DNA from: Isoetes taiwanensis
Lineage: Eukaryota > Streptophyta > Lycopodiopsida > Isoetales > Isoetaceae
DNA: 64,000 nt
NCBI GenBank assembly: GCA_021234155.1
Contig: JAJEKV010000048.1
Location: 1,765,873-1,829,872 of the forward strand
Direction: 5' to 3'
Positions 3,403 to 55,449 of the stretch are shown in pieces (the first letter of the stretch is position 1; each line of letters starts with the position of its first letter). Below the pieces are notes generated by a model. The model was not told the DNA's origin. It searched no databases and saw only the letters and a list, made by a program, of their open reading frames with translations. Position numbers and translations under genes: made by a program.

Positions 3403-4310
3403 CGCCCATTACGCAATATGATGTTTGGGTAGAGGGCATTTCAGGGTGATGGTGTCGCGATTTTCTTTCTTCTTTGTTGCAGGCGCACGCACACTGGTTA
3501 GGTTATAGGAAATAATCTGAGTTTGGAAATTGTTCGCAATGCAATGATTATTTTATGAATTGTCATCAAATTGGAATATAGATATCTAGATTCTAGATGC
3601 CCTTGAAGGCCAAAATGTCAGAGAATCTTAAAATAAAATAGAAATAGGAATAAATAAAATATTGAGTTTCCTAATTTACAAAATGCATCCATGGTATAAA
3701 AGTTTTTAAATGCAGATCTAAGACGAAAACAAATATGGTTGGATAGACCATGGTCCTATGCCACTAATATATAAGAGACGTCGAATCACAACAAAAGATA
3801 GGAAAGTGTCTCCCTTCTTAGACATGTAAAGGTAACAGGGTGTTGGTTAGAGGACTCTTCAAAAATGTTTCATTCTATTTTTGTGGGTTTGAGTCCACAT
3901 ATCAGCAAAATTGGCATCTATTGCAAATCATATGGTATTTCATTGCAAATACCATGTGCTGGTCGCACACCAGCTATGTGGGAGCCGTAGAATGGATAAT
4001 GGGTGAATTCGAGCCACATGAAGTGTTAGGCGCGACAAGTGCAAATAAAAATGATTGAGGGGCTAGGGGGGAACGAATACGGTTAGATAAGACCATAGTC
4101 CTATGGCACTGATACATAGGAGTGGGATCACAAAAAAAAGGGGTAAGAAAATGTCTCCTTCTCATGGAATAGAATATAGAATATATTTTTATCGTGCAAG
4201 GAGACCAACTGGTCTATGGGACCCAAATAAAGAAAACAGTAAGCGTATTACCATCGGGATTAAAAAACCTCTGCCCCAAAAGGTTTTTGGGCATGGTCAA
4301 CGATACTGAA

Positions 4311-45700: not shown

Positions 45701-45789
45701 AATAGACAAGATGTGGACAATGTGGTCTCTTCAGCTGCTTGCTCCATTTAGTGTTGACCTGTTAATGTATCTTAGCGGTGTCAATTTCA

Positions 45790-46177
45790 GCGATCCTGGT
45801 TGTCAAAGTGGAGTGTATGATGGATGCTTTGTATGGGAATCGTATCCTTCAGGAGGTAACCCTTAACCATATCACCATGAATATGTTTGATGCACGGAGA
45901 TGTTCCAGCTCTGTTAAGCTCTATTTAAGGGGCAAACTGAATATTGGTGAAAACAGAGGCGATGAGCACTCTAAGTTAATGTGGAACTGGCATCGTCCAT
46001 ACATTAAGTGTTCCTGCACCTCCTCGGATGCTCAAGCTAATCAGGATGCATGCAAAGGCAGCATTTTGTGGTTTGACCATGTTCTGTGGTTTGTGATGCA
46101 TCATTTTGATACGTGTTTGCCTAACTGTGATACCGTTGAAGGACAGTTTGCTGCTTTCATAAAATGGATGTGCACTC
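45790..46177 (+). pseudogene. Retroelement gag-like ORF, left part
   Basis: The frame reads NHITMNMFDARRCSSSVKLYLRG, GDEHSKLMWNWHRPYIKCSC and DTVEGQFAAFIKWMCT, then is cut by the transposon at 46178. It continues without a shift at 54923 (PNTRQVVRALMVFYF...) when the transposon and one ACTC are removed. The family is not recognised. The call as gag-like rests on the RGG-rich C-terminal part and the reverse transcriptase downstream. The start codon is not determined. Confidence 0.5.
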
Positions 46178-46567
46178 GGGTAGAAGCATGAAAGGGTGAT
46201 TGAATTTTTTTGTATATTGATGTAGAAATTTGAACTGGGTTAAAGTGTTTGTAATGTACATTTTGAATTTTACATGGAGTTGCCTATCATTAATAAATGC
46301 GGTTGACGTACAATATTCTCCATGATTATACCAAATCCTCCCGAAATCTTGGCGCACATTTTGAACTTTCCTCAATCGATCAAACATGGCTCCGGATTCT
46401 ACCTCAAGGAAAACTTGCCCCGAATCGATTATACCTGCTCCTAAATCGAATGCATTTCAAGAAACAAATGTATCTTGAAGAAATTGAAATCCCTTTCCTT
46501 CAAGCAGTAATACAAATCCTTTCAAGCAGTAATACAAATCTGGTTAATAATCTGATTTTTTGTGCAG

Positions 46568-49405
46568 GATGTTGTATTCCCTTTCTGCAGAATGGATCGA
46601 TGTCTTAAAGCACCAGTTGAAGAAGAAACTATGAAAGAAGGATTGGACTCTCATGCAAGCACTTTGAGGTCAGCATCGGGTTCAGATTTCAATCCTCCTG
46701 TTGATGAAGTTTCGGAAAGCACTGTTACAAGCAGGCAAAGAAAATCGAAACAAAGGGTTTGTAGGGGTGGATACGTGACAAAGCCAATTAGAAGAAAGGT
46801 GAATGCTGTTGTAAATCTCATAATGAATGAGGTATCTAATTTGAATCCAAAACAGCAAAGTATATTTGCAAGAAGATTATTGCAGGACAAAAGATTGCAA
46901 TTCCTATTTGAGCTAGTCATTGGAAGGCCTCAAGAGGCTATCGTGAAAACAGATCTGGTAAAGAATTTAAAGGATGGCCTCCAAGATGTCAAACATGCAA
47001 ATAGCAATGACAAACTTGCTGCAAAGCATTCTGTACTATCTATGGTGGTTGGAGAGGAAGGAGAATTACAGAAGACTTCACTAGCAGCTAAGTTGCTCAA
47101 AATACATCCTAGAAATATGAAACTAGCGAAAGGAGAGAAGGAAAAGAATGTCACTAGGTGGAACAAATCTGTGGGCATTAGCAGGTCGAAATCCAAGAAC
47201 AAATACTATAGATCAGGCTATCAAGGATATGGTTGCTCAGTTTTGGTTAGATAACTCAACGGTTTCACCAAAAATTAGAGATGTCATGAAGAAGAGGACA
47301 CAACCAATTCAATATATTGACATTACAATGCACGACCGTAATTTAAATTTAATTGCATCTTTTTTGCGTAATAAAGATGTTTTTTATTTTGTAACACTGA
47401 TGTAAAGTTTGTAACAGATTTTTTTACTTTTTGAATGTAATATAGATGCAGTCTGCACTAGTTTGCTCTACATGGAAATGTCAAATTATTTCATGGCAAC
47501 ACGTACATGTATATTTGTTTACATGTATATTCTGGATGCATTGTAGATGTAGGCAATAATTAAGAAGAAATGAGTGTGGAGATGTATTAATTGTCAAGAA
47601 ATTATGTGACTTCATAGTAAATGAAATAAAATTCATGTCAGAATATACATGTATGTGTGGGAGTTTAGGGTCTTGAATATGTAAAAGATTTGCATGTAAT
47701 GTAATGTAATGTAATGAGGTGACTAATTTTATTTCACTGTAATTTTACAGGCTGAATTATTCCAGAATTTTGTGAATTAGTATCCAGAGGTTCGGATTGG
47801 GCTTAGGCAAGTTGAATACTTAAAACCTTCTTGCATTAGAAAGCTAAAGGAAAGAAACACATGTTGTTGCGTGAAACATGAGCAATCAGATCTGTACAAG
47901 CAGGCATTTAATTTGATGAGGTCAAGACTCCATGAAAATTGTTCGTGCAATTGTGGTGTGTGCGCAGCTAAAGCTCATGCTGGGATATGTCAAGCCAAGG
48001 ACATGACATTTGATAATGTTAGCACATTTTGGAGGGCTATGGTATGTGACAGAGCAGCAGGCAACAAGTGGCATAAGCTACGATGTATCAAATCAGATTG
48101 TGGAAATTGTGGGAAACAATTAATTGAGTTGTGTCCAAGAGAATCCAATGAGCAGATTGATCAAACGCTTGATTGGCAAGTCTATGGTTACGTTAATGAG
48201 CCCTCGAAGAAAGGAACTTCACGAAGACTAAAGCTAATTGACAAGAAAGGCAGCTCCAGTAATATGTTGGATAACATGTTTGATCATATGTCAAAGTTTG
48301 TATATCATAACTTTGTGGCACATTGGTAGAGCAAACAATTCAAGGAATCCATGAAGAGTCTTCGTGATGATACCGTATTATCAGTTGTTGATTTCTCGGA
48401 GAATTATACTTTGAAGCCATTCAACGAGATTCAAGCACAACATTGGTACAATGAACAAATCAGCATATTGGTCCACATCACGATATTCAAGGTACAGGGT
48501 AAAATGAGGAAATGTGTGCACTTCTTTATTTCAGATGACAAAATATATGATACTCACTTTGTACAAAAAGCATTCACTATGCACCTCAATTGGTTGAGAG
48601 AAAATTGGTGCCGGCCATATGAAATACCACTTAGTTTGGTCTAACAATACCAGCGGCCCCAATTCAAGTCCGAAAGAGCTTTCTATTATGTAACTAGGTA
48701 TCATCAACGACATAAGATCAGAATGCACTTTGGAATTTCTTTGGCTCGGGACATGGGAAGGGCACACATGATTTGGAGAAGGAGCCATAGCCAAACTATG
48801 GCTTGAGGCGAGAACAAAGAAAAAGGATGGGAAAGTGATAAAAAATGCGTAAATTGCATGTGAGGTTCTTGAAGAGAAAATTTCGATGTGGAAAGGGTAT
48901 TTTGGAAGGTGTCCGACATTGACCGCTCCCAAAGATTTGATGTGCTCCCAAAGTGAAAGGGGTGCAATCTCTTCATTATGTATCATCCATAGATCCAAAT
49001 GATCCAACAAAGTTAATGTGTAGATCTCTTTCATGTTTTTGTAAGGAATGCATCAATTTTGATTGGCCTGCTTGTGAGAATGCTGATCATTGTGGCAGGT
49101 GGGAGTTGAGAAAACTAGAGCCTACAAACAGGGACAATGTTGAAGAAGATGGGTACGAGGCAGAGGACTTGTGGGCAAATGACGTGGATAATGTGGATGA
49201 GACAGTGCAGGTTGGAGATTATTTTGCATCATTCACATCCCCAGACAATTATGAAAGGGTCCCTTATTATCTCATCCAGTGCATAGAAGTGAAACATGCC
49301 CTCGAAGAAGACACCAAGGATGACTATGGAAATGAATTTTATTGTGGTAATGAAGTTATAGCTGGTAACTACTTTGAATTGACTCCTGGTTGCCATCAAA
49401 AGTAA
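46568..49405 (+). pseudogene. DFSENY-type transposase of the 8.7-kb transposon (decayed)
   Basis: An acceptor at 46567 opens a basic N-terminal part (MDRCLKAPVEEETMKEGLD, SKQRVCRGGYVTKPIRRK). After a shift near 47160 comes DMVAQFWLDNSTVSPKIRDVMKKR; after a gap, FQNFVN, YPEVRIGLRQVEYLKPSC and CSCNCGVCAAKAH, a Cys-rich CIKSDCGNCGKQLIELCP, DWQVYGYVN, VVDFSENYTLKPFNEIQAQHW with EQISILVHITIF, then WSNN...QFKSERAFYY and NFFGSGHGKG. This order (Cys-rich block, DFSENY, W-S-D-N...QFKS, FG..HGKG) matches a family I know from cnidarian and other invertebrate genomes with an apparent DDE/RNase-H fold. Stops follow FVN and FVAHW, there are at least three shifts, and the second Asp is Asn. Confidence 0.7.
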
Positions 49406-50296
49406 GTCAGTAATTGGGATGAGATTTCCATTGGAGCCAGTCAAACTTAAGATAATAGGTACATCTTATGCATATGAACTGACTAACTATTGGCATGAAA
49501 TGTTGCTGAGAATGAGATCTCTGTAATACGTTAACTTGTTGTTGAAGTAACTTCTATGCACTAAGGCATGGACTTGCAAACTGAACGTAATCAGAATGTG
49601 ATGTTCATGTAATCAGAAAATATTTTTATGTCCAAACATACTGTCCAAAAGTCATGGTCCTTATAAAATGGATCCATGAACTAGATTAAAACACAAACAT
49701 TAATATATTGTTTATATAGTTCCAAGACTGTTATACTTAGTGCAAGCTGTAAAAAACACTGTAAGCAGAAGGTATTGTGATTCAAGATTCAAGACTCAAG
49801 ATTCATCCAGAAGGTCCTGCAGTGTGAGATCAGCAATGGTCCTGTTCCCGAAAATTGTGAGAAGAGTGTCCAGGACAACTGTTTGGAAGTTGGTGAAATC
49901 TAACAGAAGCAAGACATGTGCTTCTCGCTTCTGTTGCCATTTATGATAGAGATTGGCAAAGTATGGTTTGAGGCTATTGAATCTCCAAACCTCAGCCCTT
50001 TTCAGCACTTTGTTGATTGCTTTTGCATGCACAACTTCCTGTTTAAGTTGAATTAGAATACTTTCTAGTTCTGCTTGAGATAATTGGGATTCCTCATCCT
50101 CCTTGTCCGCCAAGCCTCCCATAGCTCGATCCATGCTTCCAACATTGTTAAGTCTCCTTTGTGCATCTGTGTAGAACATCATAAGCAATTGTTAAATTAG
50201 GAACAAAAGCATGTTTAAGAATAGGAGTACCTCTGAACTCGTGACTGCCTCTCCGTTTGATTTTGTTCAATTGATTTCCCTGTTCGGCATTGACTG

Positions 50297-50455
50297 TGGT
50301 GGTGGGGTGTGGTGGTGGTGGTGGTGGTGTGTGTGTGGTGTGGTGGAGTGTGGTGGGGGGTGTGGTGGTGGTGGTGTGGTGTTGTGGATTGTGGTGTGAT
50401 GTCGTGTGGTGGAGTGTGGGTGGTGGTGGTGGCGTGTGGTGGAGGGGTGTGATGT
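50297..50455. repeat. GTGGTG/GTGTGG low-complexity tract
   Basis: About 160 bp of almost pure G and T on the plus strand with many GGTGG and one GGGGGG block, in an intron of the minus-strand gene. It could form G-quadruplexes. Confidence 0.85.
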
Positions 50456-53144
50456 GGTACAAGGTCACAAAATATATCACTCGAAACAATCAAGTAACTG
50501 TTTTGATTGACCAAAAAGGGGTACAAGGCTTCTTTAAATCAGAAATCTTTTTTTCAACTTTTTTTTGGACGTAAGGTGTTTTTTGTATTCATAATTATAA
50601 CTTATATATAGTTATAAAGTATACTATCAGTAGTATACTATTCAGCACAGTGTCATTTACACATTCCTTATGATAGAAAATCTTCACAAAAATGTGAACA
50701 AAAAATATATAGATATAAGCCTGTTACATAGTTCATCTTGCAAAGTCAGATACTCAGACTCATGATCAGCTCAAATTCTGTTATCGTATCTTCTACTGTG
50801 CATCAATCATAAATCAGAAATCAAAAGTTTCTTTAAATCAGAAATCAGAGGACTGCTGATTTCTACGTTCTTTCGGATTGGCATCACAATGCGTGACCAA
50901 ACCATCTATTAGAAATTGTCGTCGTGACAGTGCGTATTCATAAGAGAACCATTTAGATGTAATCTGTGACATCCATAAATAAGGTTAGAAATATTTAAAG
51001 GAACATGAGATGCAGTACATACAAGGGAAGGCATACAACTTACTTCCATATCTCTACCAGAGACAAGAGCTTCAATATATTTGTGCATAAATCCCATCAC
51101 ATACAACCCACATGATATTAAATCGGGCTGCTGTGGCACCTCTACTTGCTGAATCCGATTAAGATTATTTCTCTTCATGAAATCGACGCCTCTAGATACT
51201 TGACCGATCGATAGGGTTAACATTTGTGTGTGCAGCCTACATATCACAAAATTTAGCAGACCGAAATAGCGAAGAAAAGCAAAGCAACAACTTAAAGTAT
51301 TACATACCCTTTGATTGCTTTCTCGTTCATCGCATAACCTGTAAGAGGATTCAAGACGTGAATTGCTGGTGCAGGTAGGATCTTGGAATCAGATGGTGCG
51401 AGCGTAAAAACAGCCAGCACAAAATGGTCATTCTCAAGGATAGGTGCAAGGATATGATGGCATTTAGCTACCACAATCCCCTTCATCCCTGATTTCACTA
51501 TTTCAATGATGGTGGGTGATCCTTCAGCTGATTCACCCTTTCTTTTGCTGCTGGTAGCTTCTCTAAACCTTATATAGTTGTAAGCAGGATAAAAAAAAAT
51601 TTGCTCTTCCACTCGGAAGGCAATGTCTCATGCAAGCACCTGGATTATATTAAGGTTAACATTAGAGACAAGAAATAGCAACAAATACAGCTCGGTTACA
51701 ACCAGGTTATTACCTGCCATAAAGATCCACTAAGCGGCTACTCATTTTAGAGTTAGTTGCACATAAAATTGCTATGTCAGATGCAACCACTTTCATTTCA
51801 GCCGGCGGACAGTTCTTGAATGGCGTGAATGGCGTGAATTCCATAAGTTTATCCGTGTCATCATTTCTGTTGTCAGATCCAAGATGTTAGTGTCATATTA
51901 ACAATTGATCCATGACAATAAAACATAAATTGATACCGTCCAATCTCTGTTTCCAGTGGTTTAGACCTGCAAAACGAGTAAAATCTAATAAGCTACTGAA
52001 GTATAACTAAGTAAATGTAAGCTAGCAATTACCGTTTTGCAGCGGATGTCCCTGCTCTGGATTGCACTCTCTTTTTTCCAGCTGTTTTGGCATCTGATTC
52101 AGCTTTGACCATAAATTTAGTAGTAGCCTTGGCTGCAATCTCCAAGGCTTCTTCAACATCATCTAGCTCCATTGAATCATCGCAAGTCTCTGAAGTAAAG
52201 AAAGTGCTTTATTCTAATGTTTTGAAAGCAAGACAAAAAAAGAAACACGCACCTGCCAAAGAACAAGAATTTTCCTCAACTTGAACTTCAACGGCAGCTT
52301 CAGGACTGTTTTCAATATCGTCACCAACATCTTCAGTAATTTTATCTGTAAACACGTCAACGTAAGTTTCAAAATACAAAAAAAAAAAAAAAAAAAAAAA
52401 AAACCACGAAAAGGAGAGAGAATTACTTTTCGGGCTTTCACTTTTTCTTGCTGCAATAATAGCATTTCGACTTCAACAAATTGGGATCTCTTTTTTGAAA
52501 ACAACCTCTCACCTGCAAAATATTGAACATTAGTGAACTCTAACTACAACATATGCAATCTTAATGTAATCGAATGTAATCGAATGCAATCACCCTACCT
52601 TCCACAATTTACAAGTTTTATCCAAGTACCCTCGGTCTCCAAATCCTCGCAGACCGATTGCTTATGAGTTGTTGCAATTCTCAAAGGTGATGTAGATGTG
52701 GATGGACTTCCGACATTGATAGCAGCAGCATCTTTTGTGCCAGGTTCAGCAATTGGGATGTCTGAGAATGGTAAATGCAACCCCTTCACAACAACATCCT
52801 TCTTTTCACCTACAACATAATATTTTGCTATATTCAGAACTTAAGCATAGTGCACAAAACATGAATTGTTTAGTTTACCCGCAATTTTACTTCTTGCTTT
52901 CTTGATACTACCCATATCTGCATTGACACAATTGGGATCATAAGCAAATAAGAAATGTAAACACTTGATTCAGAATCAAGAGGAGATGTAGAGTAGATAG
53001 AAGCAAAATCTGAAGAAAAAACAATCAGATGCAAATCAAAACAGAACAAATGTTAATTACATGCAAGTAGGTTTTTACTACAGGCAAACTTTCTGCTGAT
53101 AATGTAACGACAAAATAGAAGTACATTAGTGTGCATAGCTATCA

Positions 53145-53345
53145 GAATGTAAAGGAAAACCAAATACTAAATTCAAATGCATTTCAGAACATATGTAAAA
53201 TGTAAAGAACAAAATATTTTATCAATACATCTTATCAAATACATCATTCAGCATTGAATGTAAAGGAAAGTCAAATACTAAATTCATATACATTTCTGAT
53301 CACATGTAAATGCAAAGTACAGTCATATGCAATACACCTTATTAA
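53145..53345. repeat. Diverged tandem duplication, period 111
   Basis: GAATGTAAAGGAAA..CAAATACTAAATTCA starts copies at 53145 and 53256. Both continue through CATTTC and CATATGTAAA-like motifs to ATACACCTTAT-like ends. Confidence 0.7.
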
Positions 53346-54918
53346 TACACCCCTCGTAAAGGGAATTCGGGAAAAGCACTTCCGTGGCACATGTAAATGT
53401 AAAGAATGTAAGCAAATACATTTTCTCTTTACAAGAAAGACAAAACCACGCCAAATCAAATGCTAATACGATTATGTACATGATGGAAACTAACTACATC
53501 TAAGTACACTCAAACTAATTATGTAATGAAAATAGAAATAGATGTACCTTCGGAGGGATTCCTAAGCGATTCTTGCAGTCCTCGGACCATGAACAATCAT
53601 GTACACATGTATTCGTCGTTGAAACCCTGAATACAAGACAAAATAGACAATATGTATGACCACAAAGTGGAGATATTACCATGGTCGAGTCAAGGCAATC
53701 ATAGCAGCTGCTGCAAGTATTGGTAACATGTGAGGATGAAGCGCTCCGTCTTGCTGCGAGTATGGGAGCGGGCTGCAGGCCTATCGGGTCTGATCTTTCC
53801 AAATGCTTAGTCATCTCCTTTATTCTATTCTCACACTTGGAATTAACTTCCATATCCTTGCTGATTTTTTCAATGGCAGCTTCTAATCCTTGCAAATCAG
53901 CCTTTAAACAATCAATGGGAATCATTAGAGCATCCATCTTTATTCTGCACAAGTCTTGTCAAGAAGCTCTTATCACTCTCATGCTTCAACAATTCAATTT
54001 CCATTGTTTTCCTTTTCTCTTTTAAAGTCTGTATTTCATCAAGCATGGAGGCAGAATCTAATGCTCTTCTTTCCCTCCATCTTTTCATCATTTCCAACTG
54101 CTGCCCCAATTCTATCTGAGGCATACATTTAATAGCTTTAACATTGGAAGACTTTACTGTAGCTAATTCTGTCAGGTCAGATTCTTTTTGAGAGCCTTTT
54201 GAATGAAGACTTGCACTTGCTTTCACCTCATCCCAATCAATGCTTACTCCTTTGTAATGAAGTGCATATGCTCGGGCAAAATACAATGGAATGTGATGAT
54301 TTGCAATGTCCTTTCTACAAAAAACTTGCTCATACACAGAAAAAAAAAATCTGTCATCCAAATAGGCTTAATCCTGCACTCTTGATAACCCCTAACAGCA
54401 GGGGCTTCAGAACCCCAAACATCCTGCACTAGCCCTGGAAACATGCTATCAAAATTGTTGCTCCTAAGCTGCCTGATGCTTACCTTGTCAAACTCGGGCG
54501 GCAAGACCTCCCGATCTGAAGAAGACCCACTCTTGAGTTTTCGGGCGGCAGTTCTAGTGGGAGACCTTGGCATGGGCTTTACAGGTTTGTTGCGAGGAGA
54601 TTTCCTTGGAGATGTCTTTGTTCCAAGCTGCTTCGTCATGTTCTGTTCCCTGGTGCTTCAGCTCTCTGAAAATGCAAGCTTTTGGCTATGGAGGTCCTGA
54701 TCTTGGCTATGGAGGTTCGAATATGGATGTCAAGCTTTCGGCTATGGAGGTTTGAGCGAGAGGAAGGTTGAACAGAGAGCGGGAGGAGAGTCCAAAATTA
54801 TTTGCCCTATTAATGATTCATTCCAAGAATAATAATTTCGAGGGGATTTCCTTACATTTTGAATTTGTAAATGTAAAATACTGGCACTTTTTTTGCCCAC
54901 CCTTTCATGCTTCTACCC

Positions 54919-55449
54919 ACTCCTAATACCCGGCAAGTGGTTCGGGCACTCATGGTCTTCTATTTCCTTAGGGAAATGATGTTACATGGCGCTGCCCAGT
55001 TTGTCATTAATGCAGAGAATCCGATGGGCATTATGGATGTGTATGGCGATTATGAAGGCACAAGGAACATTGAAAGAATGATTATGCCTCCTTCGTTCAC
55101 CACTCAGGCACTAAAGGTTAGAAAAGCTACTCCTCAACAGCGTCAATTGAATTTAAATGCACCTGCGCATGCGCAGAGCAGTGACAACACACAAACATTG
55201 CAAAGATCCAATAAGCGCAATTATAGGGGGCGTGGACCGGGTTACTCACGTGGTGGCTTCCATAATTCTCCATTCATTCGAGGCCGTGGTACTCCTCATC
55301 CTAATAATGATATTGTTTTCCATGACAGAAGGACACCGCCTTCTAGTACACAACTTGCAATTGGACCATCAAGTGGGGCAGGAGCTTCTTCTACTTCTCC
55401 TTTTATGGCTGTGACTCCGAAGAGGCTCTTGTCAAATATGAAACAGTGA
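54919..55449 (+). pseudogene. Retroelement gag-like ORF, right part with RGG repeats
   Basis: This continues the frame broken at 46177: PNTRQVVRALMVFYFLREMM, LHGAAQFVINAENPMG, DVYGDYEGTRNIERMIMPPSF, then a Q/N-rich linker and RNYRGRGPGYSRGGFHNSPF, IRGRGTPHP, a glycine-arginine nucleic-acid-binding tail, ending KRLLSNMKQ and a stop at 55449. It lies upstream of the reverse-transcriptase region in the same orientation, fitting a first ORF of a retroelement. The family is not recognised. Confidence 0.5.

Follow-up and report, generated by a model that had tools for sequence, protein, structure and literature searches.

Does the 8.7-kb stretch at positions 46178-54918 of the Isoetes taiwanensis DNA analysed here (64,000 nucleotides of contig JAJEKV010000048.1, hereafter the window) represent an undescribed superfamily of DNA transposons, as an initial annotation made from the letters alone had proposed, and what is the gene that accompanies its transposase? 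The stretch is a real, whole and high-copy cut-and-paste DNA transposon of this quillwort, a plant of ancient lineage. We hold with fair confidence that it belongs to a family with a transposase of the DDD type (three catalytic aspartates) and a convergent helper gene with an exchangeable tail, most likely Sola or adjacent to it. The surprising part is the swapped tail, which the initial annotation overlooked: the RING-like part of the accessory gene is kept while the tail attached to it differs between branches, Ulp1 (protease) in some and NIF (FCP1-type phosphatase) in others.

The element, its ends and its insertion site

The element is 8,741 bp long, has identical 21-bp inverted ends with the termini GGG..CCC and is flanked by duplications of ACTC.

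46174..46177, no strand: target site duplication (TSD) ACTC, left copy, from the sequence and the relatives of the uninterrupted site
46178..46198, plus strand: left 21-bp terminal inverted repeat (TIR), 560 exact copies in the genome, control 0
54898..54918, minus strand: right 21-bp TIR, from the sequence
54919..54922, no strand: TSD ACTC, right copy, from the sequence

The exact copies of the 21-mer (277 + 283) were counted in a genome of 1,658,258,908 bases in 1110 contigs, with the reversed pattern as the control. Intact rbcL reading frames of the plastid type occur in this genome as well. Among the 100 TIR places listed there were 23 inward-facing pairs no more than 30 kb apart, 18 of them spaced by 8-13.5 kb, and the first 123 bases of the element were found at 98-100% identity in the best 40 of 427 candidate places. 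When the two flanks were joined around a single ACTC, 36 of the 40 matches listed spanned the junction and are therefore uninterrupted repeats, the top one being 93% identical over 224 bases (query 2-225); the other four were the window's own flanks (two) and matches ending at or just past the junction (two). Chance and misread nested repeats were considered as explanations and are ruled out by the TIR counts against the control and by these uninterrupted relatives, so that the ends, the exact TIRs and the ACTC duplication hold as first annotated. The element lies within a dispersed repeat (45766-46177 and 54923-55449) that shows a coding-like frame to either side of it and is probably a mobile element of greater age.

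A perfect 4-bp TSD was found in nine of the ten elements with both ends readable: ACTC in the window copy, TGCC, AAGA, AGTC, AGCA and TTCT in the copies L001, L002, L003, L006 and L008, and GCCA, ATAT and AGCT in the related elements F3a, F3b and F1b. The TSD of L004 is imperfect (AGGC/GGGC, one mismatch, three of the four letters agreeing). This count omits F1a, for which the right end was not identified, and L005, L007, L009 and L010, which were fetched without both exact ends. Insertion with a 4-bp stagger is strongly supported by these TSDs and by the empty sites.

Two convergent genes had also been annotated, and both are there, the transposase on the plus strand and the coiled-coil/RING-like/Ulp1 gene on the minus strand. 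The window copy itself is decayed, a dead fossil, and its relatives retain long open frames. Its transposase has a stop at 48327-48329, shortly before the DFSENY stretch, and the frame breaks further on; the codons for SDG around the second catalytic Asp have been altered, giving WSNN for WSDG. The initial annotation of a whole DNA transposon is right, with the correction that this copy has decayed. Open second exons of the transposase were found in L009 (562 aa), L010 (600 aa) and L005 (496 aa, with an internal deletion). Further copies with the same two genes were looked for and the pairing recurs: among ten fetched copies of the window family the Ulp1 query matched nine, L008 being the exception, and the RING query matched seven (missing in L005, L008 and L009). 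L008, shortened by deletion to 4,482 bp, has kept both TIRs and its TSD, and none of the three accessory-gene queries matched it.

The transposase

46556..47330 (end approximate), plus strand: transposase exon 1 region (N-terminal), from open reading frames (ORFs), frame broken here
47751..49405, plus strand: transposase exon 2 with a Cys-rich region, the catalytic core and the C-terminal part, decayed here and open in L009 and L010
48390..48392, plus strand: first catalytic Asp codon (DFSENY), the column holding Asp in each of the 17 sequences
48749..48772, plus strand: GHGKGTHD motif, which holds the putative third catalytic Asp and is frame-shifted in the window copy

The DFSENY-type transposase of the initial annotation is present. 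Its exon 1 is 69% identical over 172 aa between L006 and the L003 subfamily, and the end of the exon, ..VRDVMKKRTQPIQYIDITQ, is conserved between the two. Among 17 aligned transposases, Asp170 and Asp254 never vary and Asp295 almost never does (L005 has lost it by its internal deletion), with 83 and then 40 residues between them. No conserved Glu column was found after Asp254 near the HGKG motif in this alignment. As three Asp columns are kept and Glu does not fall in one column, the catalytic triad reads DDD. AlphaFold2 run on the same alignment gave a model (pLDDT 75.0, pTM 0.58) with the strand and helix order of an RNase H-like fold around the three Asp. In VIA comparisons of residues about 150-336, retroviral integrases scored best (Z 9.0), with IstA at Z 7.3 and Mos1 at Z 7.5 (root mean square deviation 3.5, 164 aligned); the 50 matches listed had Z values of 7.0-9.0, and Argonautes scored alike. 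Judging from residue conservation and from the predicted model, the transposase looks like a DDD-type enzyme with an RNase-H/integrase-like core.

No Pfam or NCBIfam family was found for the transposase, only matches below threshold such as DUF1798 (E 0.03-0.056). A sequence search of the PDB gave only three matches (E 1.6-1.8), and the BFVD fold search gave nothing clear, with one match at E 1e-3 and probability 0.21. Neither one protein nor an alignment matched anything in viral contigs, a search of prokaryotic genome contigs gave nothing, and a degenerate pattern of the catalytic core had 0 matches in either; as these collections are viral and prokaryotic, absence from them says little about eukaryotes.

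Diversity of the transposase group in the genome

The initial annotation had associated the transposase motifs with invertebrate proteins. A 142-aa query with DFAENY, SDG and HGKG motifs, taken here as a putative representative of such proteins, was 34% identical to the window transposase over 134 aa and scored 73 bits, whereas none of 200 shuffles exceeded 24. Searched against the genome, it gave matches of up to 44% identity (E 8e-25) among the best 150 of 4367 candidates, and these 150 places all lay more than 1 kb from each of the 150 loci listed for the window type; 15 of these places were fetched for comparison. The query shows that real divergent families exist in this genome, and the resemblance to invertebrate proteins is a lead only.

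The window transposase is one branch of a diverse group, most branches being only 31-40% identical to the window family among the 17 sequences. A FastTree phylogeny of the 17 transposase cores joined the window family and branch X25 (support 1.00), F2 and F5 (1.00), and X27 and F4 (0.81), and set F1 and F3 together, apart from the rest (1.00). The F3 copies are 11.3 and 11.1 kb long and F1b 9.7 kb. The left ends of the related elements, GGGTCCAAGCACAATAGGGCG and, in F1a, GGGTCCTTGCATGTTACGGTG, are like that of the window family, GGGTAGAAGCATGAAAGGGTG, as judged by eye; the left end of F1b begins GGATCC. The two F3 copies L017 and L018 are 98% identical over 6 kb and have different TSDs (GCCA vs ATAT), and their transposase exons have 621 and 583 open codons, respectively; for these reasons the F3 branch has moved recently.

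The accessory gene and its differing tails

53912..54657, minus strand: N-terminal domain and coiled coil of the accessory gene, from ORFs and similarity to the F3 gene
53515..53958, minus strand: RING-like finger region of the accessory gene (PF13445, E 0.0024, below the cut-off)
50909..51627, minus strand: Ulp1/Peptidase_C48-type region of the accessory gene (PF02902, E 2.2e-4)

The gene had been annotated as a RING/Ulp1 protease. The coiled coil is there and the Ulp1 match is narrowly above the curated cut-off (21.5 vs 20.7 bits); the finger is below its cut-off and can only be called RING-like. Proteases of the Ulp1/C48 type are expected to have a catalytic His, usually an Asp, and Gln and Cys motifs. 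Here NDHF and PQQPDLISCG are present, with Asn where Asp is usual. Between the L006 and L003 subfamilies the transposase is about 70% identical in amino acids, the RING part 49% and the Ulp1 part 48%.

A convergent gene with the N-terminal domain, coiled coil and RING-like finger recurs in branches W, F1, F3, F4, X25 and X27. When nine sequences were compared, the N-terminal domains of the window family and F3 matched at E about 1e-6, and F1 and F4 at about 6e-5; for the RING part of the window family and for F4, no significant match between their groups was found there. In F1 and F3 the N-terminal domain, coiled coil and RING-like finger are followed by a NIF domain, recognised above the cut-off in F3 (PF03031, E 8e-8, 32.5 vs 21.8 bits); the corresponding region of F1 has no Pfam match itself, yet it is 56% identical to that of F3 over 108 aa. 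X27 (L027 and L033) has a coiled coil, a RING-like finger and a NIF match just above the cut-off (22.4 vs 21.8 bits), in F2 (L016) a short stretch resembles NIF (E 1e-5) without a Pfam match, and F4 has the coiled-coil/RING-like gene. These NIF tails rule out a Ulp1-type helper throughout the whole group.

The nearest branch to the window family, X25 (L025 and L032), has the coiled coil, the RING-like finger and a Ulp1 match above the cut-off, together with a NIF-like stretch at E 0.0039 (17.3 bits, below the cut-off of 21.8). X25, the sister of the window family, thus apparently carries both tails. In the joined X25 piece of L032 the NIF-like ORF lies at 3504-4028, beyond a Ulp1-type exon with Tyr for Cys. 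This arrangement is possibly an intermediate of the module exchange. Since NIF tails are spread over several branches and X25 has both domains, the history is most simply read as an original NIF-type tail, a gain of Ulp1 in the common line of X25 and the window family, and a later loss of NIF from the window family, an order based on few families.

Partner genes across the genome

The best 150 each of 5353 window-type transposase, 4367 other-type transposase, 1237 Ulp1 and 3132 NIF candidates were compared for partners within 10 kb, with positions shifted by 200 kb in either direction as controls. The counts are therefore lower bounds, and zeros hold for these lists. At least 42 of the 150 window-type loci had a Ulp1 match nearby, 41 of them downstream and convergent (controls 2 and 2), and at least 20 of the 150 other-type loci had a NIF match, all convergent (controls 1 and 0). 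Crossed pairs were not found among the listed loci, neither window-type with NIF (0 of 150; controls 1 and 0) nor other-type with Ulp1 (0 of 150; controls 0 and 1). NIF matches are very numerous, and many of those listed are not near a listed transposase; the surplus may come from a host-gene expansion or from decayed elements.

Placement of the element

Sola is defined by a DDD transposase, a 4-bp TSD, TIRs of 11-1124 bp and sizes mostly of 2-9 kb with some above 15 kb, and is described as present in moss and uncommon in flowering plants (PMC10741241). Sola1 has been reported from Physcomitrella (PMC9033089), and amoebal Sola2 elements have an AT-rich TSD of the AWWT type and carry an extra gene, Fanzor1 (PMC3627910). 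Compared with Sola by description only, the elements found here have a DDD triad (from conservation and position in the model), a 4-bp TSD, perfect in nine of ten elements, a 21-bp TIR, sizes of 8.7 (window), 9.7, 11.1 and 11.3 kb, a seed-free plant as host and, like Sola2, an extra gene. They differ from Sola2 in that their TSDs are not AWWT, ATAT being the only AT-only one among those read, and from Sola in the companion, a RING-like/Ulp1 or RING-like/NIF gene. By this description rather than by sequence, we lean towards placing the elements in Sola or its immediate kin. The class of transposon is probably a known one, and the helper gene with its swapped modules is the unusual part.

The undescribed superfamily of the initial annotation is the less likely reading: the DDD triad, the 4-bp TSD, the 21-bp TIR and the 9-11 kb size fit Sola by description. 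A new superfamily apart from Sola and the other Repbase superfamilies, spread over lycophytes and invertebrates and with the convergent RING-like gene as its hallmark, is a less probable alternative that deserves attention: the transposase matches no Pfam or NCBIfam family, the TSDs are unlike the AT-rich AWWT of Sola2, the internal diversity is large (the 31-40% identity of most branches to the window family) and a search of the open-access literature recognised no description of such elements. Against it, every testable feature of Sola was found, in a comparison by description only. In its fullest form this superfamily would have a DDD transposase, GGGT..ACCC ends, a 4-bp TSD and an obligate convergent RING-scaffold helper, would live in a lycophyte and supposedly in invertebrates, and would exchange SUMO-protease and phosphatase tails in adapting to host silencing or repair signals; so much at once we consider rather doubtful. 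No report of a transposase paired with a RING-like/Ulp1 or NIF gene was found in the open papers searched.

Proposed mechanism and role of the accessory gene

Returning to the DDD cut-and-paste family with an exchangeable helper tail, its cycle can be sketched as follows. The transposase, encoded on the plus strand in at least two exons, would recognise the 21-bp TIRs, cut the element out and insert it with a 4-bp stagger at varied sites, with catalysis presumably by the DDD residues. The product of the convergent gene would combine a coiled coil, a RING-like finger and a Ulp1-type protease domain. This protein may help in transposition or counter silencing, acting at the element on ubiquitin, SUMO or, in other branches, phospho-signals of the host. 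Such a helper might change how host proteins near the element are modified, be it for repair or to escape silencing. A helper role is the most likely one for the accessory protein; proposals of this kind have been made for Ulp1 (PMC2836005) and for TET/JBP (PMC12730594).

Several observations weigh against this family and its exchangeable tail. As to the fold, an earlier AlphaFold2 model built from five close copies was useless (pLDDT 31), Z values below 8 may reflect merely a common arrangement and such middling values are common, and with Foldseek none of 611 PDB matches reached E 0.001 or better, the top ones being Argonaute/PIWI and NurA, likewise RNase-H-like. As to the accessory gene, the RING matches are below the Pfam cut-offs (the best in the window 18.3 vs 25.2 bits, in F1 15.5 vs 27.3), the accessory gene of L019 had no RING match, and the RING part of the window family had no BLAST match to those of F1, F3 or F4 among the nine sequences, so that homology with the accessory genes of these branches is carried by the N-terminal domain only. 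The Ulp1 stretch of X25 has Tyr at the expected Cys, and no NIF or Ulp1 was found in the 10-kb pieces of F4 (L019 and L020). The NIF motif reads DING in X27, DLQG in X25 and ELDG in L016, and with such altered active-site motifs phosphatase activity is doubtful and the tail may bind instead of dephosphorylating. Finally, 108 of the 150 window-type and 130 of the 150 other-type loci had no listed partner, and for this reason the pairing is demonstrated for a minority; decay and the length of the lists may account for the rest.

Another explanation for the RING/Ulp1 and RING/NIF genes would be that they were captured from the host and contribute nothing to transposition. Plant Mutator-like elements are known to carry Ulp1-like genes, and Ginger1 transposases to have them as tails (PMC2836005), NIF relatives are abundant (the best 150 of 3132 candidates) and many may be host genes, and L008 has kept both ends without an accessory gene. 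We think such passengers unlikely, as the convergent N-terminal/coiled-coil/RING-like gene recurs in six branches (W, F1, F3, F4, X25 and X27) and the protein sequence is conserved between subfamilies.

Comparison with other known systems

Kaonashi is among the Mutator-like elements that carry Ulp1. A place in Ginger, Kolobok, IS3EU or Mutator, and not in Sola, is very improbable for our element: the Ulp1 domains of Ginger1 and Mutator elements (PMC2836005) and the integrase-like fold matches speak for it, and the ends and TSDs set all four aside, with GGG..CCC here and not the TG..CA of Ginger, a TIR of 21 bp and not of 40-270, a TSD of 4 bp versus 7-12 bp in Mutator (PMC10741241), no TTAA among the ten TSDs, as Kolobok would have (PMC9587614), and neither the 6-bp TSD nor the TAYGG..CCRTA ends given for IS3EU in rust fungi (PMC12730594).

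Ginger1 resembles the element in its integrase-like fold and in having a Ulp1 domain tied to it, but there the Ulp1 domain sits within the transposase itself (PMC2836005), Ulp1 or OTU being fused to Ginger transposases, and the ends are TG..CA with long TIRs. The Ulp1-carrying Mutator-like elements are likewise plant DNA transposons with a Ulp1-like protease (PMC2836005), with TSDs of 7-12 bp and relatively long TIRs (PMC10741241). KolobokP and KolobokD also combine a transposase with a captured accessory gene, in KolobokP downstream and on the opposite strand, but they have a TTAA TSD and their accessory genes code for nucleases (PMC9587614). In the fungal TET/JBP transposons an enzyme gene has passed between unrelated lineages, and escape from silencing has been proposed (PMC12730594); transposases, enzyme and hosts are different there, and the whole gene moves between superfamilies, whereas in the quillwort elements the tail alone differs, within one group.

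If the exchange is real, a RING-like scaffold persists within a single group of DNA transposons and the enzyme joined to it changes, being of the SUMO-protease type in one branch and of the phosphatase type in others. The elements would then form a natural variant series for helper effects on host SUMO, ubiquitin and polymerase-tail phosphorylation, a question that has so far arisen chiefly from isolated captures, for instance of Ulp1 in Mutator-like elements and Ginger (PMC2836005) or of TET/JBP in fungal transposons (PMC12730594). DDD elements that fit the description of Sola also seem to be abundant and diverse in a lycophyte, and as this class is described as uncommon in flowering plants (PMC10741241), plant repeat libraries may miss such elements.

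Other features of the element

49796..50191, minus strand: 131-aa ORF in the variable segment between the genes, shared with some copies only

A GT/GGT-rich tract of low complexity (50290-50450) lies between this ORF and the Ulp1 region. Among the fetched copies compared, the ORF is absent from L002, L003, L006, L007 and L010 and recurs in L004, L009, L001, L008 and L005. The version in L033 has no Pfam family. Versions 46-56% identical were found in two loci of other branches, L033 and L015.

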